NCBI GenBank assembly: GCA_019236485.1
Contig: JAFAIY010000282.1
Location: forward strand, 1 to 11,897
Direction of reading: 5' to 3'
Length of the DNA stretch: 11,897 nt
From: Comamonas sp.
Lineage (GTDB): Bacteria > Pseudomonadota > Gammaproteobacteria > Burkholderiales > Burkholderiaceae_C
In this document: positions 27 through 11,610 of the stretch, one piece after another
Position numbering within the stretch: the stretch's first letter is position 1
Layout of the letters: each line of letters opens with the position of its first letter
Made by a program: the position numbers and the translations under genes
The notes under the pieces: model-generated
Seen by the model: the letters and a program-made list of their open reading frames with translations, nothing else
The model's database searches: none
Told to the model about the DNA's origin: nothing

Positions 27-42
27 TGGCACAGAGCTTGTA
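27..42 (+). promoter_or_regulatory. Sigma-54 (-24/-12) promoter of the aldehyde dehydrogenase gene
   Basis: The sequence reads TGGCAC-AGAGC-TTGTA, against the RpoN consensus TGGCAC-N5-TTGC(A/T). The -24 element is perfect. The -12 element has one change (TTGT for TTGC), and the spacing between elements is exact. The predicted transcript would start near position 52-54, leaving a leader of about 45 nt before the ATG at 97. Any activator site would lie upstream, outside the window. The call is strengthened by three further -24/-12 matches in the window and by the encoded sigma-54 activator. Confidence 0.75.
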
Positions 43-96
43 TATGAGTTGCGAGCCGGCCCCTGTGCGTCGGTCTTCATCGACAAGGAGACATTC

Positions 97-1623
97 ATGG
101 ACATGTTCGAACTCAAGCGTTTCAACCTCGACATCGCTTACCCCTACAAGCAGCAGTACGACAACTTCATCGGCGGCAAGTGGGTCGCGCCGCTGGCGGG
201 CCGCTATTTCGACAATGTCTCGCCCATCACGGGCAAGCCTTTCTGCAAAGTGCCCCAGTCCGACGCCAACGACGTGAATCTGGCCCTGGACGCAGCCCAC
301 GCGGCCCAGGACAAGTGGGCCGCGACCTCGGTCACCGAACGCGCCAACATCCTGCTCAAGATCGCCGACCGCATGGAGCAGAACCTGGAGCTGCTGGCCA
401 TCGCCGAGACCATAGACAACGGCAAGCCGCTGCGCGAAACCATGGCCGCCGACATTCCGCTGGCCATAGACCACTTCCGTTATTTCGCGGGCTGCATACG
501 CGCCCAGGAAGGCGGCATCTCCGAGATCGACGCCAACACCGTGGCCTACCACTTCCACGAGCCCATAGGCGTGGTCGGCCAGATCATTCCCTGGAACTTC
601 CCGCTGCTGATGGCCGCCTGGAAGCTACCGCCCGCGCTGGCCGCCGGCTGCTGCGTGGTGCTCAAACCCGCCGAGCAGACCCCGGCCTCCATCATGGTGC
701 TGATGGAGCTGATCGCCGACCTGCTGCCCCCCGGCGTGGTCAACGTGGTCAACGGCTTCGGCAGGGAAGCCGGCGAGGCCCTGGCCACCAGCAAGCGCAT
801 CACCAAAATTGCTTTCACGGGCTCCACGGCCGTGGGCCAGCGCATTCTGCACGCGGCCGCCGACAATCTGATTCCCTCGACGGTGGAGCTGGGCGGCAAG
901 AGCCCCAACATCTTCTTCGCCGATGTGATGGACGCCGACGACGAGTTCCTCGACAAGGTCATGGAAGGCTTTTCCATGTTCGCGCTCAATCAGGGCGAAG
1001 TCTGCACCTGCCCCTCGCGCATCCTGATCCAGGAGTCCATCTACGAGCGCTTCATCGAGCGCGCCGTCAAGCGCGTGCAATCCATGAAGCAGGGCCATCC
1101 GCTGGACAAGAGCACCATGGTTGGCGCCCAGGTGTCGCAGGCCCAGCTCGATCGCATCCTCGGCTACATCGATGTGGGCCGCCAGGAAGGCGCGCAATGC
1201 CTGACCGGCGGCGAACGCCACCGCCCGGGCAGCGAGATCGACGACGGCTTCTTCATCAAGCCCACGCTGCTCTTCGGCCAGAACAATATGCGCGTGTTCC
1301 AGGAAGAGATCTTCGGCCCCGTGGCCTCGGTCACCACCTTCAAGACCATGGAGGACGCGGTACGCATCGCCAACGACAGCGAGTACGGCCTGGGCGCGGG
1401 CGTGTGGAGCCGCAACGGCAGCACGGCCTACCAGATGGGCCGCGCGGTCAAGGCTGGCCGCGTGTGGACCAACTGCTACCACCTCTACCCTGCTCATGCG
1501 GCCTTCGGCGGCTACAAGAAGTCGGGCATAGGTCGCGAGAACCACAAGTCGGCCCTGGCCAACTACCAGCAGACCAAGAACCTGCTGGTCAGCTACAACC
1601 CCAAGGCCATGGGCTTCTTCTAA
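97..1623 (+). CDS. NAD-dependent aldehyde dehydrogenase, ExaC/AcoD type
   Basis: This is a 508-residue cytoplasmic aldehyde dehydrogenase that oxidises aldehydes such as acetaldehyde to carboxylates with NAD+. The length matches the ExaC/AcoD group (about 506 residues). Visible landmarks are the Rossmann-region segment [14 protein letters not shown], the general-base motif VELGGKSPN with Glu264, and the catalytic nucleophile Cys303 in GEVCTCPSR. The late conserved segments EEIFGPV and [12 protein letters not shown] are also present. The start at 97 is chosen because AAGGAG lies just upstream and the mature-type sequence begins MDMFELKRF. An in-frame ATG at 49 lies close to the predicted transcription start and lacks a ribosome site. 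The gene sits 114 bp before two FMN-protein genes and is probably transcribed with them from the sigma-54 promoter at 27-42. Its likely role is to remove the aldehyde produced by the quinoprotein dehydrogenase encoded further on. The exact aldehyde range cannot be read from sequence. Confidence 0.93.
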
Positions 1624-1647
1624 GCACCTCCTGAGACGCTGCGCGCC

Positions 1648-1678
1648 TTCCCCCTCTCTCGCAGCGCGGGAGGGGGAG
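1648..1678. repeat. Intergenic hairpin between aldehyde dehydrogenase and FMN-protein genes
   Basis: TCCCCCTC (1649-1656) pairs with GAGGGGGA (1670-1677), and G-T wobbles extend the stem on both sides. The loop is about 7-13 nt. No T-tract follows, so it is not a convincing intrinsic terminator. It could be an mRNA-stabilising or processing element between the two coding regions, or one copy of a dispersed intergenic repeat. The window alone cannot decide. Confidence 0.4.
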
Positions 1679-1736
1679 ACAACCCCGGTGCGGGGCGCGC
1701 CAATGGACGGTGCGTAATGCGTAATCAAGGACTGCT

Positions 1737-2141
1737 ATGGCCGAGACTTCATTAGCCGCCCTCAAGTCCTGGCTAGAAGCCCAGCAGTTCTGTCTGCTGG
1801 GCTCGGCCAGCGCCGCGGGCGATTGCGACTGCTCCTATCGCGGCTGCGAGACCCGGGGCCTTGCCGAGCCCCTGCTGCAGGTACTGGACCACAGGCGGCT
1901 GCTGCTGCCCGACTACCCGGGCAACAATCTCTTCAACAGCATAGGCAATCTGCTGGAGCAGCCGCGGATCGCGCTGCTGTTCGTCGATTTCGAGCGGCAG
2001 TCCACCGTGCTGCTGCAGGGCCTCGCGCAGCTCGCCGGGCCTCATCCAAGTTGGCCGGCGGCACCGCGCACCATCGCCGTCGCGGTGGACCAGGTGCAGC
2101 GCGCTGCGGTCGCGGGGCTGCCGCCGCTGGTGCCGGCCTGA
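1737..2141 (+). CDS. Pyridoxamine 5'-phosphate oxidase-like FMN-binding split-barrel protein, short
   Basis: This 134-residue protein resembles flavin-binding split-barrel proteins of the pyridoxamine 5'-phosphate oxidase superfamily. The core pattern is visible: GDCDCSYRG near residue 30, then a VLD segment, then LPDYPGNNLFNSIGNLLEQP and ALLFVDFE. In relatives these elements form the FMN-contacting beta barrel. AAGGA lies five bases before the ATG. The C-terminal part is short and weakly conserved compared with full-length relatives of about 200 residues. It lacks the usual closing motif of the family (cysteine, proline, arginine, then tyrosine-isoleucine). The neighbouring gene at 2165 carries a related domain with that closing motif. 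Both probably belong to the aldehyde dehydrogenase transcript. The substrate is unknown; family members include oxidoreductases and flavin or haem binders. Confidence 0.72.
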   Translation: MAETSLAALKSWLEAQQFCLLGSASAAGDCDCSYRGCETRGLAEPLLQVLDHRRLLLPDYPGNNLFNSIGNLLEQPRIALLFVDFERQSTVLLQGLAQLAGPHPSWPAAPRTIAVAVDQVQRAAVAGLPPLVPA

Positions 2142-2164
2142 GTTCAGCCACGCCAGGAGTTGCG

Positions 2165-2698
2165 ATGCGCATCATTCTCGAAGATCCCTGCGAGCGCGAT
2201 ATCTTCCACCCCGGCGAGCGCGCGGCGCAGCGCCGCTTCGGCGTGGAGGCCGAGGCCCGCGAGATGAAGGGGACCATAGGCGACCGGCTGAGTGCGGGCC
2301 AGGCGCGCTTCATCGCCAGTCAGCCGTTTTTCTTTCTCAGCGTGCAGGACGGCGATGCCATCCACACACAGATGCTGGCCTGCGCGCAGACCGTGCAGGG
2401 CTGCTACCCGCTGCTGGCCTTTGGCGATGCGCAGACTTTTTTCTTTCTGCTGCTTGAGAACGAAGGCCGGCGCCTGCTGCAGCTGACCCACCAGAACGGC
2501 TGCCAGGCCGGCATGATCTTTGTGGACTTTGCGCGCGGCGCGCGTTTTCGCATCAACGGCGAGCTGCGCCAGGCTGCCGGCGAGGCGCTGCCCGACTTCC
2601 AGCATCCGGCCGGCTACCGGCTGATGGAAATGCGCGTGGCGCAGGCCTATGCGAATTGCGGGACGCGCATCGTGCGCCTGAAAAAAACCGCGGACTGA
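2165..2698 (+). CDS. Second pyridoxamine 5'-phosphate oxidase-like protein
   Basis: This 177-residue protein starts at an ATG preceded by AGGAG and follows the previous gene by 23 bp. Its opening (FHPGERAAQRRFGV) resembles the N-terminus of long FMN-binding pyridoxamine 5'-phosphate oxidase-like proteins. It continues with a barrel-like strand pattern: FIASQPFFFLSVQDGD near residues 47-62, then GMIFVDFARGARFRINGEL. It closes with AYANCGTRIVRL, which corresponds to the family's FxNCPxYI ending. The usual DxSYRG-type motif is not preserved after the first strand, so FMN binding is uncertain. Together with the gene before it, it may form a heteromeric barrel, since split-barrel flavoproteins generally act as dimers with flavin at the interface. 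That is inference. No function is claimed beyond the fold. Confidence 0.62.
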   Translation: MRIILEDPCERDIFHPGERAAQRRFGVEAEAREMKGTIGDRLSAGQARFIASQPFFFLSVQDGDAIHTQMLACAQTVQGCYPLLAFGDAQTFFFLLLENEGRRLLQLTHQNGCQAGMIFVDFARGARFRINGELRQAAGEALPDFQHPAGYRLMEMRVAQAYANCGTRIVRLKKTAD

Positions 2699-2746
2699 GC
2701 CCGCGCAAGAAACCACTGCTCCGCGCCGCCTGCAGGCGCTGGATGC

Positions 2747-2774
2747 AAAAAGGCCGCCGGCTGCAGCGGCGGCC
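2747..2774 (-). terminator. Intrinsic terminator of the pedF-type gene
   Basis: A perfect 8-bp GC stem (GGCCGCCG at 2752-2759, CGGCGGCC at 2767-2774) encloses a 7-nt loop. On the minus strand it is followed by five T residues (2751-2747). It lies about 20 bp beyond the stop codon of the minus-strand cytochrome gene. The plus-strand side has no T-tract, so it acts mainly on the minus-strand transcript, although it also separates the convergent FMN-protein gene. Confidence 0.85.
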
Positions 2775-2794
2775 CTGGTTGCCCATCCGGCCGC

Positions 2795-3280
2795 TCACTG
2801 ATCGCGGCGCACTTCGAGATAGGTACGTATGGCCCAGATGGCCTCCTGCGACAGCGTGCCCTCGAAGGGCGGCATGTAGACGCGCCCGTCGCGCGTGCGC
2901 CCGCGCCGCGCCGTGCCCACGTAGTAGTCGTCCATCTCCTTGTAGCAAGCGGCTTTTTTGCCGGCATCGGCCAGGCCGCTGCACTCCTCGTCGAATTTGC
3001 GCAGATCCGGTGCGATGCCGCCCGAGATCGCTTCCAGGCCATGGCAGCGCGCGCAGTTCTGGTTGTAGGCCGAACTGCCTATGCGCAGTGCCTCCTTGCG
3101 CGCCGGGCTGCTCTTGTCATAGGGATTGGCATCCAGCCATTTGCTGCCGAGCTGGGGCAGAGTGCTCGTATCTACGGCCTGGGGTACCACATCGCCATGG
3201 GCCATGGCAGCCGATACGCTGCAGGCCAGGCTCAGGGCCAGCAGAGCCTGCCTCGGCAGGCGCGGAAAGAATCGCTTCAT
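2795..3280 (-). CDS. pedF: Cytochrome c-550, PedF family
   Basis: This is a 161-residue exported monohaem c-type cytochrome, the likely periplasmic electron acceptor of the quinoprotein alcohol dehydrogenase. A signal peptide (KR start, hydrophobic core, AMA cleavage after residue 27) precedes the mature protein. The haem site is CARCH (Cys76, Cys79, His80), and Met136 in YMPPFEG is the probable second axial ligand. Cys100 and Cys112 are a further cysteine pair with the same spacing in the second cytochrome of this window, so a disulfide is likely. The start at 3280 follows GGAGA and gives a proper signal peptide. Longer frames upstream would bury it. The gene is transcribed away from the regulator gene under a sigma-54-like promoter 48 bp upstream. 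The PedF family is known as partner of PQQ ethanol dehydrogenases in pseudomonads. Confidence 0.9.
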   Translation of the reverse strand: MKRFFPRLPRQALLALSLACSVSAAMAHGDVVPQAVDTSTLPQLGSKWLDANPYDKSSPARKEALRIGSSAYNQNCARCHGLEAISGGIAPDLRKFDEECSGLADAGKKAACYKEMDDYYVGTARRGRTRDGRVYMPPFEGTLSQEAIWAIRTYLEVRRDQ

Positions 3281-3327
3281 CAGGGTGTCTCCGGTTTGGA
3301 ATTTTCGAAAAGCTTCCCTGAGCCAAA

Positions 3328-3343
3328 AGCAATATGCGGGCCA
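3328..3343 (-). promoter_or_regulatory. Sigma-54 (-24/-12) promoter of pedF
   Basis: Read on the minus strand the sequence is TGGCCC-GCATA-TTGCT. The only departure from TGGCAC-N5-TTGC(A/T) is C for A in the -24 box, and the GG and GC dinucleotides are correctly spaced. The predicted start lies near 3316-3318, giving a leader of about 36-38 nt to the ATG at 3280. Confidence 0.8.
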
Positions 3344-3376
3344 TGTCCGGGGCGTCGCCTCCGCCACCGGCCCCTC

Positions 3377-3393
3377 TGTCTCAAATTGCAGCA
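3377..3393. promoter_or_regulatory. Candidate activator-binding palindrome 1
   Basis: TGTCTCAAATTGCAGCA is a 17-bp imperfect palindrome with TGT/CA ends and a CAA-A-TTG core (5 of 8 positions symmetrical). It shares 11 of 17 positions with the element at 3418. Its centre is about 67 bp upstream of the predicted pedF start. The encoded AcoR-type activator is the obvious candidate to bind it, but this is inference. Confidence 0.45.
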
Positions 3394-3417
3394 AAACCGG
3401 TGTGCGCGGGGGCTCAC

Positions 3418-3434
3418 TGTCACAGTCTGGAACA
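3418..3434. promoter_or_regulatory. Candidate activator-binding palindrome 2
   Basis: TGTCACAGTCTGGAACA is a 17-bp imperfect palindrome (6 of 8 half-site positions symmetrical), matching the element at 3377. The common pattern is TGTC-n-CA-n3-TG-n-A-n-CA. The two elements start 41 bp apart, close to four helical turns, so bound proteins would face the same side of the DNA. This one lies about 108 bp upstream of the predicted pedF start. Confidence 0.5.
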
Positions 3435-3609
3435 GCCCTGGCCGGCCTGCGGCCCTGGCCGCCCCGGGATATCCATGTTGCCGGCAAGCCCCCGCGCCGG
3501 GACAATCCGTGCAGAAAAAAAAGATCGGGCCTGCTGCATGGACAGGCACACAGATCCGAACTGGCGGCAGCTCGCTGGAGACCTCGCCCTACAGCCCCCA
3601 GGAGACACT

Positions 3610-5604
3610 ATGAACACAGGTTCCTTCGGTAGCATCTCCGGGCATCGGAATGCTGCTTCAAGCCCGATATCGCTCGGGCACCATCACACCGAGGTGATAG
3701 ACAAGGCGCACCAGCGCTCCCAGGCCTATGGCGTGGCCATCCACGACGAGCCCGACTGCAGCAGCCTCGCCAAGGGCCAGCTCAGCGATATGCTCGAAGA
3801 AAGCCGCCTGCTGTTCCAGCATGCGGCGCCGGTGATGGAGACGCTGTACGAGCAGATTGCAAATACCCACAGCATGGTGCTGCTGACCTCGGCCAAGGGC
3901 ATGGTGCTGCACTCCCTCGGCGACAACGACTTTCTCGAAAAGGCCTCGCGCGTGGCCCTGATCCCCGGCATGGACTGGTCGGAGAAAACCAAGGGCACCA
4001 ATGCCATAGGCACGGCACTCAGCGAGGAAGAGCCCATCACCATCTACGGCGGCCAGCACTATATGAGCGCCAACAAGTCGCTGACCTGCTCGTGCTCGCC
4101 CATCTTCGATCCCTATGGCCAGGTCATAGGCGCGCTCGACGTCACCGGCGACCACCGCAGCCACCACCAGCATACGCTGGCGCTGGTGCGCATGTCGGCG
4201 CAGATGATAGAGAACCATATGTTCGCGGGCAGCTTTCCCAAGGCGGTGCGCCTGCACTTCCACTCGCGACCGGAGTTCCTCGGCACCCTGGTCGAGGGGA
4301 TTGCCGTTTTCACGCCCGAAGGCCGTTTTCTCTCGGCCAACCGCAGCGCCCAGTTCCAGCTCGGACTCTCATTCAACGCGCTGCAGGCGCATACTTTTTC
4401 CTCGCTGTTCAACCTGCCCATCTCCGCGCTGTTCGAGCTGTTCGGCGGCACGGTCCAGGCACCTCGGCAGTTGTGCATGCACAACGGCGTCTCGGTCTGG
4501 AGCCGCGCCGAGGTCAAGCCCGCCAGCCCTTGGGCCGCACCGCAGCTGGCACCCGTGCAGCCGACCGAACCGCCGCGCTCCGCCGTGCAACGCAAGCCGC
4601 ATTTCTCCTCGCTGCAGTATCTGGACACCGGCGACCCGCAGATAGCCGCCATCATCCACAAGCTGCGCCGGGTCGCGGACCGCGACATTCCTGTGATGAT
4701 CCTCGGCGAGACCGGCTCCGGCAAGGACCTGCTGGCCCAGGCCATACACAATGACTCCGCGCGTGCGGGCCAGCCCTTTGTCCCCGTCAACTGCGCTTCC
4801 ATCCCCGAGTCGCTGATCGAGGCCGAGCTCTTTGGCTACGAGGAAGGCGCTTTCACGGGCGCGCGCAAGAAAGGCGCCATGGGCAAGATCGCCCAGGCCC
4901 ATGGCGGCACCCTGTTCCTCGACGAAATCGGCGACATGCCCAAGCATCTGCAGGCGCGGCTGCTGCGCGTGCTGCAGGAGCGCAAGGTCAGCCCACTGGG
5001 CGCGGGCAAGGAGGTGGAGGTGGACGTCACGGTGATCAGCGCCACCCACAAAAACCTCAAGGAAATGATTGCGCGCGGCGAGTTCCGCGAGGACCTCTAC
5101 TACCGCCTCAACGGCCTGGTCGTGCGCTTGCCCGCGCTGCGCGAGCGCAGCGACTTCGAGCTGGTGGTGAGAAAAGTGCTGCAGTCGCTGTGCGCCAGCG
5201 GACAGCAGATGGACATCGCGCCCGCCGTCATGGAGCTGCTCGCGCAATATCACTGGCCCGGCAATGTGCGCCAGCTGCACAATCTGCTGCGCACGGCCGT
5301 GGTCATGGTCGGGGACGAGGGCTGCATAGGCCTGCATGATCTGCCCGACGATTTCCTCGAAGAACTGCAGGGCCGCAGCGCCTGGCCCGCGGCGCCGACG
5401 GCGGCACCCAGCGATACGCTGTTCCCCGCGACCGGCGAAGCGCTGACTGACAGCCAGCGCCTGCAGGATGTGACGCTCAACGCCATGGCACAGATGTTGC
5501 GTCTGCACAAAGGCAATGTGTCGGCGGCGGCCAAGGCGCTAGGCGTCTCGCGCAACACCATTTATCGCAAGAAGAATCTGCTGCCGCCCGACCTGCTCGA
5601 CTGA
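3610..5604 (+). CDS. Sigma-54-dependent transcriptional activator, AcoR-type (GAF-PAS-AAA+-Fis HTH)
   Basis: This is a 664-residue enhancer-binding activator that would hydrolyse ATP to open RpoN promoters. The N-terminal third (to about residue 205) matches the AcoR-type sensor and GAF region, including GMDWSEKTKGTNAIGTAL and CSCSPIFDPYGQVIGALDVTG. A PAS-like segment follows at about 220-300 (LVEGIAVFTPEGRFLSANRS). The AAA+ module has Walker A GETGSGKD (366-373), the sigma-54 contact loop GAFTGA (413-418) and Walker B LFLDEIGD (about 435-442). The C-terminal Fis-type helix-turn-helix is GNVSAAAKALGVSRNTIYRK, beginning at 635. The ATG at 3610 has GGAG six bases upstream; an earlier in-frame ATG at 3334 would add sequence unlike the family. 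There is no phosphorylatable receiver domain, so an effector (perhaps an alcohol or aldehyde) probably acts on the sensor region. It is transcribed divergently from pedF and stands among sigma-54 promoters. AcoR and BmoR are known relatives of this architecture. Confidence 0.92.
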   Translation: MNTGSFGSISGHRNAASSPISLGHHHTEVIDKAHQRSQAYGVAIHDEPDCSSLAKGQLSDMLEESRLLFQHAAPVMETLYEQIANTHSMVLLTSAKGMVLHSLGDNDFLEKASRVALIPGMDWSEKTKGTNAIGTALSEEEPITIYGGQHYMSANKSLTCSCSPIFDPYGQVIGALDVTGDHRSHHQHTLALVRMSAQMIENHMFAGSFPKAVRLHFHSRPEFLGTLVEGIAVFTPEGRFLSANRSAQFQLGLSFNALQAHTFSSLFNLPISALFELFGGTVQAPRQLCMHNGVSVWSRAEVKPASPWAAPQLAPVQPTEPPRSAVQRKPHFSSLQYLDTGDPQIAAIIHKLRRVADRDIPVMILGETGSGKDLLAQAIHNDSARAGQPFVPVNCASIPESLIEAELFGYEEGAFTGARKKGAMGKIAQAHGGTLFLDEIGDMPKHLQARLLRVLQERKVSPLGAGKEVEVDVTVISATHKNLKEMIARGEFREDLYYRLNGLVVRLPALRERSDFELVVRKVLQSLCASGQQMDIAPAVMELLAQYHWPGNVRQLHNLLRTAVVMVGDEGCIGLHDLPDDFLEELQGRSAWPAAPTAAPSDTLFPATGEALTDSQRLQDVTLNAMAQMLRLHKGNVSAAAKALGVSRNTIYRKKNLLPPDLLD

Positions 5605-5686
5605 GGCGGCTGGCGCGGCACGAACTGGATTTCCCAAGGCTGGCGCTGGTCCCCGCTCAAACCCTTGATGCAGGAGATCTAGAACA

Positions 5687-6220
5687 ATGGCGCAACCCCA
5701 CTACGACCGCGGCTCGGTGCTGCTGCACTGGCTCATGGCCGCTCTGCTGCTGGCCGAACTGGGCCTGGGCCTGTGGATGACGGAACTGCCCAAGAACGAC
5801 GGCGGCACGCGCGCTTACTGGTTCAACATCCACAAATCCCTGGGCATGCTGCTGGGCCTGCTGATACTGCTGCGCCTGGGCTGGAGCCTGCTGCGGCCGC
5901 GCGTGGTCGCCGCGCCCCAGAGCCCGGTGATGCAATGGCTGGCCGCCAGCGGCCACCGGCTGCTCTATGCCTTCATGCTGCTGCTGCCCCTGTCGGGCTT
6001 TCTGGGCTCGGTGTTCTCCGGCTATCCGATCCGTTTCTTCGGCCTGCGCCTGCCCCGGCTGGCCGAGCGCTGGGAAACTGCCAAGGAGTTGCTGAGCTGC
6101 CTGCATCAGCTCTCGGTCTACGCGCTGCTGCTGCTCCTGACCCTGCATCTGCTGGCCGTCGTCCACCACCAGTTCATTCTGCGGGACGGGCTGCTCCAGC
6201 GCATGCTGTTCCGTAAATGA
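5687..6220 (+). CDS. Cytochrome b561-type membrane protein
   Basis: This 177-residue, four-helix integral membrane protein belongs to the bacterial cytochrome b561 / di-haem b family. Hydrophobic segments lie at about 12-31, 48-69, 90-110 and 140-160. Histidines placed for haem ligation are His14 (LLHW), His49 (NIHKSLG), His140 (CLHQLS) and His154 (TLHLLAVVHH). The start has AGGAG eleven bases upstream. In this family the protein moves electrons between quinone and periplasmic partners. Here it might link the alcohol-oxidising cytochromes to the membrane quinone pool or serve an unrelated redox role; the sequence does not say which. It lies 82 bp after the regulator gene, and only a weak sigma-54-like sequence precedes it. 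Confidence 0.85.
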   Translation: MAQPHYDRGSVLLHWLMAALLLAELGLGLWMTELPKNDGGTRAYWFNIHKSLGMLLGLLILLRLGWSLLRPRVVAAPQSPVMQWLAASGHRLLYAFMLLLPLSGFLGSVFSGYPIRFFGLRLPRLAERWETAKELLSCLHQLSVYALLLLLTLHLLAVVHHQFILRDGLLQRMLFRK

Positions 6221-6328
6221 GCAGCTGTCGCAGCCCACGCTCCACATTTGAGCGTCTGCGCCATGCTGCGCCCCCCTCTGGCCAGCGCCTCACCGCAGCC
6301 TGAACCCGGCTTGCTCAGCAATCCACGG

Positions 6329-6344
6329 TGGCACGCGTCTTGCG
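6329..6344 (+). promoter_or_regulatory. Sigma-54 (-24/-12) promoter of the quinoprotein operon
   Basis: TGGCAC-GCGTC-TTGC-G matches the RpoN consensus at all core positions (TGGCAC, five-base spacer, TTGC). It is also followed by a G after TGGCAC, as in the extended consensus. The predicted start lies near 6354, about 38 nt before the ATG at 6392. This is the strongest of the four sites. Confidence 0.88.
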
Positions 6345-6391
6345 TTGATGAGTCTGCGATTCAAGCACCACAACACAAGGAGCAAACCACC

Positions 6392-8275
6392 ATGACCAAT
6401 CCGGCATCCCGCCCCCTGCGGCTCAGCACGCTGTGCCTGGCGCTCGCGGCCACCCTGTCCCTGCCCGCCCAGGCCGTCAAGCCCGTCACCTGGGAAGACA
6501 TCGCCAACGACGCCAAGACTCCCGGCGATGTGCTCACCTACGGCCTGGGCCTGACCGCGCAGCGCTACAGCCCGCTCAAGAAGCTGAACACCAAGAACGT
6601 GGCGGGCCTGCTGCCGGCCTGGAGCTATTCCTTCGGCGGCGAAAAACAGCGCGGCCAGGAAGCCCAAGCACTGGTGCATGACGGCGTGATCTATGTGACG
6701 GCCTCATACTCGCGCTTCGTGGCGCTGGACGCGCGCAGCGGCAAGCGTCTGTGGAGCTACGAGCACCGCCTGCCCGAAGACATCCGTCCCTGCTGCGACG
6801 TGGTCAACCGCGGCCCCGCTATCTATGGCGACAAGGTCTATTTCGGCACCCTGGATGCGCGCATCGTGGCGCTGGACCGTGCCACCGGCAAGGTGGTCTG
6901 GAACGAGAAGTTCGGCGACCACAAGGTGGGCTACACCATGACCGGCGCCCCCTTCATCGTCAAGGACCAGAAGACCGGCAAGGTGCTGCTGGTGCACGGG
7001 TCCTCGGGCGACGAGTTCGGCGTGGTCGGCTATCTCTATGCACGCGACCCCGACACGGGCAAGGAGGTCTGGGCCCGGCCCATGGTCGAAGGCCATGTGG
7101 GCCGCCTCAACGGCCAGCCCAGCACGCCCACGGGCGACCCCAAGGCGCCCAGCTGGCCCAATGACCCGAACTCCCCCACCGGCAAGGCCGAGGCCTGGAG
7201 CCAGGGCGGCGGCGCCCCCTGGCAGACCCCGTCCTTCGACGTGGAGACCAACACCATCGTGGTCGGCACCGGCAACCCCGCGCCCTGGAACACCTGGAAG
7301 CGCACGGCCAAGGGCGACGACCCGAGAAACTGGCCCAGCCTCTACACCTCGGGCCAGGCCTATGTGGACCCGGGCACCGGCGAGCTCAAGGGCTTTTTCT
7401 CGCACACGCCCAACGATGCCTGGGACTTCTCGGGCAACAACTCGGTGCTGCTGTTCGACTACAAGGACGCCAAGACCGGCAAGACCGTCAAGGCCTCGGC
7501 CCACGCCGACCGCAACGGCTTCTTCTTCGTGACCGACCGCAGCAAGCTCGCCGAAGCCACGGGCGGCCATCCCTGGAAGCAGAGCGCCATCATCAATGCC
7601 TGGCCCTTTGTCGACGGCATCACCTGGGCCTCGGGCTTCGATCTCAAGACCGGGCTGCCCATGGAGAAGAACAACCGCCCGCCCGAGCCCAAGGAAGGCG
7701 AGGAAAAAGGCGACAGCATCTTCGTCTCGCCGCCCTTCCTGGGCGGCACGAACTGGATGCCCATGAGCTACAGCCCCGACACCGGCCTGTTCTACATCCC
7801 CGCCAACCACTGGGCCATGGACTACTGGTCCGAGCACATCACCTACAAGCCCGGTGCGGCCTATCTGGGCCAGGGTTTCCGCATCAAGAAGCTGCACGAC
7901 GACCATGTGGGCACGCTGCGCGCCATCAATCCGCAGACCGGCAAGATCGTCTGGGAGCACAAGGAGCAGTTCCCACTGTGGGCCGGCACGCTCACCACGG
8001 CCGGCGGGCTGCTGTTCACGGGCACCTCGGACGGCTATGTGAAGGCCCTGGACCAGAGGACGGGCAAGGAGCTGTGGAAGTTCCAGACCGGCTCGGGCGT
8101 GGTCTCGGTACCCGTGACCTGGGAGATGGACGGCGAGCAATATGTGGGCATCCAGTCGGGCTACGGCGGCGCCGTGCCGCTGTGGGGCGGCGACATGGCC
8201 GAGCTGACCAAGCAGGTCTCGCAAGGCGGCTCCATGTGGGTCTTCAAGCTGCCCAAGCAGGTGGCCAGCAAGTGA
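6392..8275 (+). CDS. exaA: PQQ-dependent alcohol (ethanol) dehydrogenase, type I quinoprotein
   Basis: This 627-residue periplasmic quinoprotein of the ExaA/PedE group oxidises primary alcohols to aldehydes with PQQ and a metal ion. The signal peptide ends at LPAQA (residue 28). The mature protein shows repeated propeller-type tryptophan-docking motifs (such as LDARSGKRLWSYE, LDRATGKVVWNE and LDQRTGKELWKF). The adjacent Cys134-Cys135 pair (RPCCDVVNRG) forms the strained disulfide ring over PQQ in this family. The catalytic aspartate is Asp345 in NDAWDFSGNN. Residue 347, two positions on, is Ser rather than the Asp found in lanthanide enzymes such as XoxF and PedH, so Ca2+ is expected. There is no C-terminal haem c domain, so an external cytochrome is needed. 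AAGGAG precedes the chosen ATG. All 17 Ile codons are ATC, suggesting high expression. Substrate preference among alcohols is not readable. Confidence 0.93.
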   Translation: MTNPASRPLRLSTLCLALAATLSLPAQAVKPVTWEDIANDAKTPGDVLTYGLGLTAQRYSPLKKLNTKNVAGLLPAWSYSFGGEKQRGQEAQALVHDGVIYVTASYSRFVALDARSGKRLWSYEHRLPEDIRPCCDVVNRGPAIYGDKVYFGTLDARIVALDRATGKVVWNEKFGDHKVGYTMTGAPFIVKDQKTGKVLLVHGSSGDEFGVVGYLYARDPDTGKEVWARPMVEGHVGRLNGQPSTPTGDPKAPSWPNDPNSPTGKAEAWSQGGGAPWQTPSFDVETNTIVVGTGNPAPWNTWKRTAKGDDPRNWPSLYTSGQAYVDPGTGELKGFFSHTPNDAWDFSGNNSVLLFDYKDAKTGKTVKASAHADRNGFFFVTDRSKLAEATGGHPWKQSAIINAWPFVDGITWASGFDLKTGLPMEKNNRPPEPKEGEEKGDSIFVSPPFLGGTNWMPMSYSPDTGLFYIPANHWAMDYWSEHITYKPGAAYLGQGFRIKKLHDDHVGTLRAINPQTGKIVWEHKEQFPLWAGTLTTAGGLLFTGTSDGYVKALDQRTGKELWKFQTGSGVVSVPVTWEMDGEQYVGIQSGYGGAVPLWGGDMAELTKQVSQGGSMWVFKLPKQVASK

Positions 8276-8277
8276 GC

Positions 8278-8886
8278 ATGATGGCCGCGCCCCCCCTGCT
8301 CCGGTGCGCGGCCGTGGCGCTGGCCTGCCTGGCCGGCGTCACGGCCCCGGCCCAGACACCGGGCAATGCCGCCGATCCCGGCGAACCACTGGTGATCAAC
8401 GGCTGCCCCATCTGGCCCTATACCCGCTGCCCCGGCGCCGATCTGCGCCATGCGAACCTGGTCGGCAAGAATCTCGCGGGCGCGGACCTGCGCGGCGCCG
8501 ACCTCACGCGCGCCGACCTGCGCGCCGCGAATCTCGCGGCGGCCAACCTCGAAGGAGCGAACCTCACGGGTGCGCGCCTGGCCAAGGCCACGGCCGCCAA
8601 CACCGACTTCAAGCATGCGCGCTTCATAGGCGCGGACCTGGAAGGCGCGCGCCTGATGCGCTCGGACTTCTCGGGTGCCGAATTCATAGGTTCCAACCTA
8701 GAGATGGCGCGCTTCAACAACGCCTGGTTCGTGGGCGCGCGCTTCATCGCCAACGATCTGCAGGAAGCCAAGTTCGCCACCACCAATCTGACGAACGCGG
8801 TATTCGAGGGCAATTTCGTGCTCTACACCTTGTTCACCGAGGCGGCCATGGACGGCTGCCAGGGCTGCCAAGAAAGCTGGAAGTGA
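8278..8886 (+). CDS. Exported pentapeptide-repeat protein
   Basis: This 202-residue protein begins two bases after the quinoprotein stop (TGAGCATG), implying translational coupling; an ATG at 8281 is an equally possible start. A signal peptide (hydrophobic run ending near APAQ, residues 22-26) directs export. From about residue 52 to 180 it consists of A(D/N)Lxx pentapeptide repeats, for example ADLRGADLTRADLRAANL. These fold as a right-handed quadrilateral beta-helix in known structures. Four cysteines flank the helix: Cys43 and Cys51 before it, Cys194 and Cys197 after it. The last pair is CxxC without the following His, so it is not a haem site. The function is unknown. Its place between the dehydrogenase and its cytochrome suggests a periplasmic role in maturation, docking or stabilisation of this electron-transfer system. 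Confidence 0.87.
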   Translation: MMAAPPLLRCAAVALACLAGVTAPAQTPGNAADPGEPLVINGCPIWPYTRCPGADLRHANLVGKNLAGADLRGADLTRADLRAANLAAANLEGANLTGARLAKATAANTDFKHARFIGADLEGARLMRSDFSGAEFIGSNLEMARFNNAWFVGARFIANDLQEAKFATTNLTNAVFEGNFVLYTLFTEAAMDGCQGCQESWK

Positions 8887-9329
8887 TGCGCACCATTCTG
8901 CTGTTTGCTCTCGCGCTGGCCGGCCAGGCCCAGGCCTTCGAGCCCTTCGCCCCGCAGGTGGACACGGCGCCGCTGCCACCGGCCGCGCGCACCTGGACCG
9001 AACCCAATCCCCTGCGCGGCAACCAGGAGGCCATGGCCATAGGGCGCAGCGCCTTTAACCAGACCTGCGCTCACTGCCATGGCATGGATGCCAACGGCTC
9101 GCGCTCCCCGGCGCCCGATCTGCGGCGCATGGGAGCCGGCTGCAAGCGCATCGCGGACGACGCGCTGCGCCAGCGCTGCCTGGCCGATGCCGATGCCTTC
9201 TTCATCAAGTCGGTGCGCTACGGCAAGCAGAAATTCGGCATCGTCCATATGCCGCCCTGGGATGGCGTGCTGTCCCCGGAGCTGGTCTGGTCGCTGCGGA
9301 CCTTTGTGGAAAACGCTCCGGCGCGCTAG
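8886..9329 (+). CDS. Second cytochrome c-550, PedF-like
   Basis: This is a 147-residue exported monohaem cytochrome c. The start codon overlaps the preceding stop by one base (TGATG), so translation is coupled to the pentapeptide-repeat gene. The signal peptide ends at AQA (residue 17). The haem motif is CAHCH (Cys61, Cys64, His65), and Met122 in VHMPPWDG is the likely axial ligand. It aligns along its length with the minus-strand PedF homologue: VDT-x2-LP near the mature N-terminus, IG-S-A-NQ before the haem, APDLR after it, and a cysteine pair 12 residues apart (Cys86, Cys98). It is therefore a paralogue. Being in the same operon as the quinoprotein, it is the most direct candidate for its electron acceptor. 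The two cytochromes may act in series or under different conditions. Confidence 0.9.
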   Translation: MRTILLFALALAGQAQAFEPFAPQVDTAPLPPAARTWTEPNPLRGNQEAMAIGRSAFNQTCAHCHGMDANGSRSPAPDLRRMGAGCKRIADDALRQRCLADADAFFIKSVRYGKQKFGIVHMPPWDGVLSPELVWSLRTFVENAPAR

Positions 9330-9357
9330 CATCGGGAAATGCCTCAGAGTCCAATCG

Positions 9358-9397
9358 GCAGCTGGCGCTTGTGCTGCAAGCGCCAGCTGCTATTTTT
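9358..9397 (+). terminator. Intrinsic terminator of the quinoprotein operon
   Basis: A perfect 14-bp stem (9358-9371 with 9377-9390) has a 5-nt loop TGCTG and is followed by TATTTTT. It lies 28 bp after the cytochrome stop. The T-tract overlaps the TAA stop codon of the convergent minus-strand hydrolase gene, so the same hairpin sits immediately downstream of that gene. No T-tract serves the minus-strand direction. Confidence 0.93.
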
Positions 9398-10469
9398 ATG
9401 GAAGCACCAAGGGCGGCGCGGCAAGGCATTGGCACAAGGCCGCGCGCATCGCAGGCTCGTCGGCCAGATGGCCGCAGGACGGCAGCCGCAGGCTCACCGC
9501 TGCGCCGGCCGCCAGCCCCATGCGGGCCCAGCGCCGGCTGTTGGCGGGCGGGCAGATGGCATCGAAGCGCCCATGCACCCAATCCACGGCCACGCCTTGC
9601 TGGGCCAGCGCACGCACGGCGCCGTCAAGAGCGCCCGGCCGCACAAAACCCCGGTGCTGCAGATAGTGGGCCTGGACTCGATAGCGGGCCCATAGCAAGC
9701 GGTCGGCCCGGTTCGCCCGCGGCCGCAGCAGCTCCGCCTCGGCGCGGCGCTGCCGCCGGCGCAACACCGCCCATTCACGGCGCAGCGCGGCGGCTTTGCC
9801 GACCCGGGCATGAAGCAGGCTGCGCCTCAGTCCGGCCGCGGCATCGCGCATCTCGCGCAGCGCCCAGCCGCGCAAGGCGTGCAGCGATGCAACACCAGGT
9901 GTTCCGCTTTGAAGCAGTTGTGCCAGATCGACAAGCGCCCAGGCCAGCGGCGTCCCGGGCTTCACGGGCCAGACGGCATCGCTGCGGCCCAGTGCTTTTC
10001 CCTTGCGGGCCGAAGGCAGCAGCAGGCCGCCGATCTCGCGCCGCGTGAGGCGGAACGCGCCGCGCAACACCAGCCGCTGCACGCGCTGCGGATGCTGCCG
10101 CGCATAGCTGAGCGCCACCACCGTCCCCCAGGAACCGGCCAGTAGCGACCAGCGCTGCAGACCCAGATGCTCGCGCAGCGCTTCGAGATCGGCCACCAGC
10201 GCGACCGTATGGTTGGCCTGGATGCAGCCCCTGGGGCGCGATGCGCCGGCGCCGCGCTGGTCCGGTGCGATCACGCGCTGCCGTCCCAGATCGAAGGGCT
10301 TGAGCATGCCCGGCTGGCAGCCGCCGCCCGGCCCGCCGTGCAGCAGCAGCCAGCATTCACCGTCGGCATGGCCGAGCTCGCGCCAGGCCACGCGGTGCGC
10401 ACCGCGTGCCAGCCATCGCGGCGCTGGCCAGAAGGGCTTGGATGAGGTGGCATCGAACTTGCTTTTCAT
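9396..10469 (-). CDS. Alpha/beta hydrolase, proline iminopeptidase-type (S33)
   Basis: This 357-residue cytoplasmic hydrolase carries the hallmarks of proline iminopeptidases. The oxyanion motif HGGPGGG is at 44-50, and DQRGAGAS at 70-77. The nucleophile elbow AGSWGT has Ser113; family members usually read GGSWG. The acid Asp303 is in [10 protein letters not shown] and the base His334 in CGHLA. Such enzymes remove N-terminal proline or other residues from peptides. The central cap region is long and rich in Arg and Ala, so substrate range is uncertain. The ATG at 10469 is preceded by an AAGG sequence at moderate distance. The gene is divergent from pqqA, and its first codons contain the predicted sigma-54 promoter of pqqA. 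A peptidase beside a gene for a peptide cofactor precursor invites a link to PQQ maturation, but nothing here proves one. Confidence 0.85.
10448..10463 (+). promoter_or_regulatory. Sigma-54 (-24/-12) promoter of the pqq operon
   Basis: TGGCAT-CGAAC-TTGCT differs from TGGCAC-N5-TTGC(A/T) only at the last base of the -24 box. The spacing is exact. The predicted start is near 10473, about 72 nt before the pqqA ATG. The element lies inside the first codons of the divergent hydrolase gene. No palindrome like those at 3377 and 3418 was found in the preceding 200 bp, so the activator site, if any, is unidentified. Confidence 0.68.
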
Positions 10470-10544: not shown

Positions 10545-10619
10545 ATGCAATGGACAGCCCCCACCTTCACCGATCTGCGTTTCGGCTTCGAAATCACCAT
10601 GTACATCGCCAACCGCTGA
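10545..10619 (+). CDS. pqqA: PQQ precursor peptide PqqA
   Basis: This gene encodes a 24-residue peptide, [13 protein letters not shown]... ending in MYIANR, preceded by AAGGAG nine bases upstream. It contains the diagnostic E-x3-Y pair, Glu16 and Tyr20 (FEITMY). Family knowledge says the radical-SAM enzyme PqqE joins these side chains and the crosslinked pair becomes the PQQ skeleton. Length and motif match PqqA throughout proteobacteria. It is the first gene of the pqq operon, and pqqB follows after 73 bp containing a hairpin. Confidence 0.97.
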
Positions 10620-10692: not shown

Positions 10693-11610
10693 ATGCATCT
10701 GCGCGTTCTAGGCTCCGCCGCCGGCGGCGGCTTTCCCCAGTGGAATTGCAATTGCTCCAACTGCGACGGCCTGCGCCGCGGCAGCCTGCGTGCCCAGGCA
10801 CGCACCCAATCCTCGATAGCAGTCAGCGCCAATGGCCGCGACTGGCTGCTCGTCAACGCCTCGCCCGACATTCTTCAGCAGATCCGCGCCACGCCGCAGC
10901 TGCAACCCGCGCGTGCGGTACGCGACAGCGGCATTGCGGCCGTGCTGCTCATGGACGCGCAGATCGACCATGTGACCGGCCTGCTGATGCTGCGCGAGCG
11001 CCAGAGCCCGCTGCCGCTGCTGGCCACGCGCGAAGTACTGTCGGACATAGGCGCGGGCTTCCCGATCACCAAGATTCTTTCGCATTACTGCGGCGTGCAG
11101 CCCCAGCCCATTCCCCATGACGGCAGCGCCTTCGGCGTCCCCGGTCTGAAGGGCCTGGAGATACGTGCCGTGGCACTGTCGTCCAAGCCCCCGCCGTACT
11201 CGCCGTTTCGCGGTGCTCCGCGGCCCGGCGACAACATCGGCATCGTGCTCCAGAACCCGGCCACGGGAGCGCGCGCCTTTTATGCGCCGGGCCTGGGCGA
11301 GGTCACGCCCGAGCTGCAGACGCTGATGGCCGGCTGCGATGTGGTGCTGGTGGACGGCACGTTCTGGCGCGCCGACGAGATGCAGAGCCTGGGCCTGTCC
11401 GAGAAAAGTGCCGCCGACATGGGCCACCTGCCGCAAAGCGGGCCGGGCGGCATGCTCGAGCATTTTCGCCGCCTGCCCGCGCGCACGCGCAAGCTGCTGA
11501 TCCACATCAACAACACCAATCCCATCCTGGTCGAGGACTCGGCCGAGCGCGCCTTGCTGGACGAGCTGGGCATAGAAGTTGCACACGACGGCATGGACAT
11601 CCCACTCTGA
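10693..11610 (+). CDS. pqqB: PQQ biosynthesis protein PqqB
   Basis: This 305-residue protein of the metallo-beta-lactamase fold has the length usual for PqqB. The N-terminal signature is SAAGGGFPQWNCNC, followed by a third cysteine (Cys19, Cys21 and Cys24), a cluster typical of the family. The metal-site region reads DAQIDHVTGLLML instead of the canonical HxHxDH, also as in PqqB. Later family segments are PGDNIGIV, YAPGLGE, DGTFW, MGHLPQSGPGG and INNTNPIL. Family studies place PqqB in oxygen-dependent modification of the crosslinked precursor before PqqC acts. The ATG at 10693 has no good Shine-Dalgarno sequence, so translation may depend on local structure, but no alternative start fits the family N-terminus. 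It is followed after 9 bp by pqqC. Confidence 0.96.
   Translation: MHLRVLGSAAGGGFPQWNCNCSNCDGLRRGSLRAQARTQSSIAVSANGRDWLLVNASPDILQQIRATPQLQPARAVRDSGIAAVLLMDAQIDHVTGLLMLRERQSPLPLLATREVLSDIGAGFPITKILSHYCGVQPQPIPHDGSAFGVPGLKGLEIRAVALSSKPPPYSPFRGAPRPGDNIGIVLQNPATGARAFYAPGLGEVTPELQTLMAGCDVVLVDGTFWRADEMQSLGLSEKSAADMGHLPQSGPGGMLEHFRRLPARTRKLLIHINNTNPILVEDSAERALLDELGIEVAHDGMDIPL

Follow-up and report, generated by a model that had tools for sequence, protein, structure and literature searches.

A predicted sigma-54 regulon for quinoprotein alcohol oxidation in Comamonas sp., with putative control sites inside coding sequences

The locus and its -24/-12 elements

The contig C450 (JAFAIY010000282.1) of Comamonas sp. 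was analysed over its entire length of 11,897 bases (the window); the assembly comprises 4.08 megabases in 672 contigs and is 87% complete. The window brings together genes for alcohol oxidation dependent on pyrroloquinoline quinone (PQQ), namely ExaC acetaldehyde dehydrogenase (ALDH), the cytochrome c-550 PedF, a cytochrome b561-type membrane protein (cytb), a PQQ-dependent alcohol dehydrogenase (adh) and the cofactor synthesis genes pqqA, pqqB and pqqC, with a gene for a sigma-54 activator (Table 1). An earlier note on this DNA had proposed four sigma-54 promoters, before ALDH, pedF, the quinoprotein (adh) operon and pqqA, each with zero or one core mismatch, as a single RpoN regulon. All four -24/-12 elements were found as claimed: TGGC and TTGC are intact at three, and the ALDH element has one core mismatch (TTGT). 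Between the last -12 base and the ATG lie 55 (ALDH), 48 (pedF), 48 (adh) and 82 (pqqA) bases, which agrees with the 36-72 nt given earlier, provided that the transcript begins some 12 nt past the -12. With GG and GC 10 bp apart in the -24/-12 consensus, the elements belong by sequence to the sigma-54 promoters. The number four was too low, as a fifth element lies at 5486 within the activator gene.

To the 12-position sigma-54 consensus TGGCAYRNNNNTTGCW, six sites matched at 11/12 or better in the window, compared with 0.58 expected from 100 first-order Markov sequences (largest 3) with GG and G held fixed. These six are the four elements named above, the fifth at 5486 (+) and a site at 11568 (+), which has GGGC, lies within pqqB and was dismissed as probably due to chance.

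Relatives were collected by scanning genome contigs with the activator, which gave 152 related loci; the best 80 of these were used, together with 29 from 299 family genomes. Including the window, this gave 110 activator genes, ten of which are duplicates at 98.5% DNA identity and are counted below unless loci are called distinct. The activator was detected in at least 98 of the 299 family genomes; G137 and G245, each with the activator in two pieces, were missed. An element was called at 10/12 or better to the consensus at the expected place. It was present before pedF in 85/85 loci (78 without duplicates; L116, at 54%, and L108, cut, were dropped), before ALDH in 23/24 (L012, L070, L076 and L092, cut at the locus edge, were dropped) and before pqqA in 35/35 (34 without duplicates), the pqqA set being loci in which pqqA was recognised and pqqB shares the strand of the activator gene (L035 was skipped). 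For adh, the first count was confined to hits of at least 80% identity (10 of 53 loci), and all ten of these close orthologues carry the element. The other 43 are 47-62% identical; among the 26 distinct ones with enough sequence, scored later with the motifs fixed beforehand, it was found in 25. At pedF, GG and TTGC are 100% conserved across loci and the flanks mostly 27-55%, so that the core is constant and the spacer varies. As an imperfect control, the opposite strand at pedF reached 10/12 or better in 45/85 loci, partly because of a second, activator-facing element in many relatives.

No element was found before the operon-internal genes penta (0/5), cytc (0/5), ppox (0/4) and orf177 (0/5); the last two are small genes at 1737-2698, separating ALDH from pedF, for a PPOX-like flavoprotein (ppox) and a 177-residue protein without Pfam or NCBIfam match (orf177). 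A rival view, in which the -24/-12 matches arose by chance or have no activity and the real promoters are of another type, draws on the looser pattern TGGCN7TTGC: at up to one mismatch, the window contains no excess of it (28 vs 22.7 expected; 27 of 200 shuffles reached 28). Against it stand elements that keep their position in the relatives while the spacer is free to vary, and a simple scan of the window that returned no sigma-70-like promoter; we consider it exceedingly unlikely. Position and conservation, beyond enrichment in the window, are in our view the decisive evidence for these predicted promoters. The earlier proposal had made itself dependent on conservation of the elements in related genomes, and this dependence it survived.

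Many Hydrogenophaga-type loci (L039, L042, L043 and others) carry an activator-facing TGGCN7TTGCT some 208 bp ahead of the activator start that shares the pedF palindromes described below, which suggests that the activator may switch on its own gene there; no such element was seen in the window. Limnohabitans-type loci have a -24/-12 element with palindrome also before genes for a TonB-dependent receptor (L064, 20079), a 4Fe-4S membrane protein (L075, 1024) and a membrane protein that matches no Pfam family (L093, 13289).

By TIGR03075, the product of adh is a PQQ methanol/ethanol dehydrogenase, whereas the second c-type cytochrome remained below the PedF cut-off of TIGR04494. Three congeneric genomes in the sample (G128, G219, G289) showed neither the activator nor pqqB at the thresholds used, so the contig may have been gained horizontally or been mis-binned. 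Elsewhere in the same genome (L223, G000:C446), a second PQQ-dehydrogenase gene is divergent from another GAF-type regulator gene; between them lies a 12/14 palindrome (2667-2683) and no convincing -24/-12.

Table 1. Genes and predicted regulatory sites in the window
Feature	Position	Strand	Remarks
sigma-54 element of ALDH	27..41	+	TGGCACAGAGCTTGTA; 11/12
ExaC acetaldehyde dehydrogenase (ALDH)	97..1623	+	NCBIfam NF050026, 902.2 bits (cut-off 900)
PedF cytochrome c-550	2795..3280	-	TIGR04494, 200.6 bits (cut-off 122)
sigma-54 element of pedF	3329..3343	-	TGGCCCGCATATTGCT; 11/12
upstream palindrome 1 of pedF	3377..3393	.	10/14; among top window hits of pedF-trained matrix
upstream palindrome 2 of pedF	3418..3434	.	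12/14
sigma-54 activator gene	3610..5604	+	GAF, PAS-like, AAA+ with GAFTGA loop, Fis-type helix-turn-helix
fifth sigma-54 element, proposed b561 promoter	5486..5500	+	TGGCACAGATGTTGC; in activator 3' coding sequence, codons of MAQMLR
cytochrome b561-type membrane protein (cytb)	5687..6220	+	PF01292
upstream palindrome 1 of adh	6207..6223	.	10/14
upstream palindrome 2 of adh	6238..6254	.	9/14; 10-11/14 in sister loci
sigma-54 element of quinoprotein (adh) operon	6329..6343	+	TGGCACGCGTCTTGCG; 11/12
PQQ-dependent alcohol dehydrogenase (adh)	6392..8275	+	TIGR03075, 711 bits (cut-off 480)
pentapeptide-repeat protein (penta)	8278..8886	+	PF00805
second c-type cytochrome (cytc), PedF-like	8886..9329	+	TIGR04494, 105.9 bits (cut-off 122)
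alpha/beta hydrolase gene	9396..10469	-	PF00561; contains remote palindrome; pqqA -24/-12 at its 5' end
remote palindrome assigned to pqqA	9900..9916	.	TGTTCCGCTTTGAAGCA; 11/14; inside hydrolase gene, 531 bp before pqqA -24
sigma-54 element of pqqA	10448..10462	+	TGGCATCGAACTTGCT; 11/12
pqqA	10545..10619	+	24-residue translation
pqqB	10693..11610	+	TIGR02108, 408 bits (cut-off 245)
pqqC, incomplete at contig end	11620..11895	+	open frame; named from place after pqqB

The activator and a shared upstream palindrome

That a sigma-54 activator is encoded amid the elements was borne out by its domain matches. PF01590, PF00158, PF25601 and PF02954 were over cut-off; PF08448 was over cut-off overall, yet no single stretch passes. 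The GAFTGA motif was read in the translation, and with this motif in the AAA+ sigma-54 interaction domain and a helix-turn-helix the protein is a bacterial enhancer-binding protein. As regards membership of the activator in the AcoR/BmoR subfamily, none of the NCBIfam matches listed (25 of 28) was over its cut-off. A gene with the sigma-54 (rpoN) DNA-binding domain is present in the same genome.

The regions upstream of pedF, adh and ALDH have the palindrome TGTTCCA-N3-TGGAACA in common. When 71 dereplicated pedF regions were searched without a seed, the two best of six runs gave TGTTCCAAATTGGAACA with 18.6 bits and the remaining four gave weaker motifs; two shuffled runs gave 6.8. Calling a palindrome at 10 or more of the 14 positions within 230 bp of the -24, it was present in 79/79 distinct pedF regions (86/86 with duplicates, compared with a shuffle mean of 8.05), at adh in 11/11 (shuffle mean 0.75) and at ALDH in 18/22 (shuffle mean 1.25). 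The held-out adh homologues described above had it within 230 bp of the -24/-12 in 24 of 26 distinct loci. In the window, any ALDH palindrome is beyond reach, since the contig begins at base 1 and the element at 27. With the half-site permuted in 60 ways, 7-9% of regions on average still came up to the threshold; TGTCTCA, a permutation close to the motif, did so in 65% of the pedF regions and 59% of those of ALDH, and one other permuted palindrome in 82% of adh regions. No clear motif emerged when exact 5-base dyads were tried as upstream site. The palindrome is probably the binding site of the activator. Scanning the own genome with three mismatches was unspecific (50 matches per strand vs 29 for the reversed control), and in four relatives with two mismatches the motif and control gave 6 and 6, 11 and 0, 7 and 1, and 4 and 4 matches; therefore a genome-wide regulon is not claimed.

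Sites within the hydrolase and activator genes

At pqqA the idea of one regulon held in modified form: the palindrome lies near pedF, adh and ALDH, but about 530 bp off at pqqA, inside the hydrolase gene. A wide scan placed the best pqqA-side palindrome -625 to -735 from the start codon in 35/36 loci, and in 34/35 distinct loci it scored at least 10/14 at 522-597 bp before the pqqA -24. Locus L068, in which no hydrolase was detected, has a palindrome 89 bp before the pqqA -24 instead. The 35 hydrolase genes have a mean G+C content at third codon positions of 0.82, and the lowest 5-codon window coincides with the palindrome (0.21), the other lowest columns being the embedded pqqA -24/-12. Eight of the 11 most A/T-ending of 339 hydrolase columns lie at 9890-9923 and two in the -24/-12.

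Natural controls were provided by the 73 of 299 family genomes with pqqB, which contributed 74 pqqB-upstream regions, 65 with a recognisable pqqA and nine without; G052, G057 and the window's own region were outside this set. A far palindrome was observed in 14/14 regions with hydrolase and -24/-12 (including the doubtful L186) and in 2/23 with hydrolase and no -24/-12. Without hydrolase, a near palindrome was present in 6/6 regions with -24/-12 and in 2/22 with neither. Fisher tests gave p 2e-8 for the hydrolase classes and 7e-5 for the classes without it, both uncorrected for kinship; many positive regions belong to genomes of the first locus set, and only the negative ones are new. In L172, L180, L181 and L182, the gene immediately preceding pqqA encodes a relative of the activator (54-62%), and both a CGGCAC...TTGC element and near palindromes occur there. 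In L133, pqqA has a 13/14 palindrome at -165 and no -24/-12 of 10/12, and the genome has no activator match at E 1e-100.

The fifth element lies 186 bases before the b561 start codon. All 17 distinct loci in which b561 follows directly have an exact TGGCN7TTGC at this position, as do 2/28 distinct loci with the same peptide where no b561 was seen next, one of these two (L012) being a short locus. Across 19 loci, 332 amino-acid columns are invariant; among them a single A/T-ending codon is used throughout only at 5488 (GCA), and the sole leucine column that is TTG in all 19 is 5497. The b561-carrying loci may form one clade, and the counts for the fifth element are given without kinship correction.

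Both sites could be explained as protein conservation showing through in the DNA, as LLQSGT and MAQMLR are conserved peptides and the hydrolase protein sequence already yields about 9.3 of 14 palindrome positions in synonymous shuffles. Shuffling 34 distinct hydrolase genes gave 9.34 of 14 (standard deviation 0.14, maximum 9.88), compared with 11.62 observed, which exceeds the largest of 300 shuffles in each of two runs (9.66 and 9.88). At 5488/5497, shuffles recreated GCA and TTG in 0.08 loci on average and in at most 2/19, compared with 19/19 observed, and the same peptide is written with other codons in 26/28 distinct loci without cytb next. Protein conservation as the full explanation thus appears highly improbable, and at the remote site the codon shuffles point to selection acting on the DNA as such.

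A regulon model and known systems

Judged from the conserved elements and from the common upstream palindrome as a link to one regulator, the earlier proposal of a single RpoN regulon gains support, and the locus very probably forms one sigma-54 regulon under the GAF-AAA-Fis activator encoded in its middle. We infer that sigma-54 uses these sites, that the activator binds the palindrome and that an alcohol or aldehyde is the signal. The activator, a one-component regulator with GAF sensor, AAA+ domain bearing GAFTGA and Fis-type helix-turn-helix, would sense this compound through its GAF domain, bind TGTTCCA-N3-TGGAACA, contact the sigma-54 holoenzyme through DNA looping and open the promoters before ALDH, pedF, cytochrome b561, the adh operon and pqqA, so turning the pathway on. 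At pedF, adh and ALDH the palindrome would act from ordinary enhancer distance, pqqA would be activated from about 530 bp away out of the divergent hydrolase coding sequence, and b561 would be read from a promoter within the activator's own coding sequence.

Several observations weigh against this model. The palindrome seed was first picked by eye on these same regions, and since the loci were collected with the activator as bait, finding it in them tests nothing. The ALDH element is missing in L061. A matrix built from pedF only reached p<0.01 at 0/11 adh and 4/22 ALDH regions (median p 0.037 and 0.018); it was discarded as too narrow for adh, with a control drawn from loci holding real sites, and was replaced by the 14-position count with shuffles. 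The contribution of the hydrolase protein to the remote palindrome, given above, belongs here as well. No palindrome lies closely upstream of 5486, the nearest of at least 10/14 in the window being 721 bp downstream; the b561 promoter may be served by the adh palindromes, at this distance of about 720 bp. At pqqA, a near palindrome was found in 5/35 distinct loci. This scarcity, the unusual distance of the remote palindrome and the presence of other sigma-54 activators in the genome would fit sigma-54 acting at all promoters with pqqA, and perhaps b561, under another activator, the hydrolase palindrome serving something else or nothing. We regard this as unlikely, given that the far palindrome accompanies the pqqA -24/-12 in the natural controls and that L068 carries its palindrome close to pqqA. 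It is likely that control of the regulon is in part written into coding sequence, as a pqqA enhancer in the hydrolase gene and a b561 promoter in the activator gene, and is kept there by selection on synonymous codons, locking cofactor synthesis, dehydrogenases and electron carriers to one activator across Comamonadaceae. If true, this would give a full account of how enzyme, electron carriers and cofactor supply are switched jointly without a two-component cascade, and enhancers located remotely in a neighbouring gene would escape short-range promoter scans.

Sigma-54 activators of the AcoR/BmoR type are one-component GAF-AAA-Fis proteins of alcohol, acetoin and alkane catabolism, encoded beside the oxidation genes that they control. 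The window activator is likened to them by layout and shares this adjacency, but unlike in those systems it is tied to the PQQ alcohol pathway plus cofactor synthesis. Ethanol oxidation by the exa/ped system of Pseudomonas is controlled by LuxR-type two-component regulators; ExaC, PedF, a quinoprotein alcohol dehydrogenase and pqq genes are common to both, whereas the window encodes no LuxR-type two-component regulator. In Azospirillum brasilense, a quinoprotein alcohol dehydrogenase is sigma-54-dependent and a LuxR-type regulator acts as well, which resembles the predicted sigma-54 control of the PQQ alcohol dehydrogenase in the window; we know of no shared palindrome or remote pqqA site in that system. 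Enhancers of the NtrC/NifA type are upstream palindromes that act by looping, usually over about 80-200 bp. Looping is likewise proposed for the pqqA palindrome, but over 522-597 bp and from inside a coding sequence.

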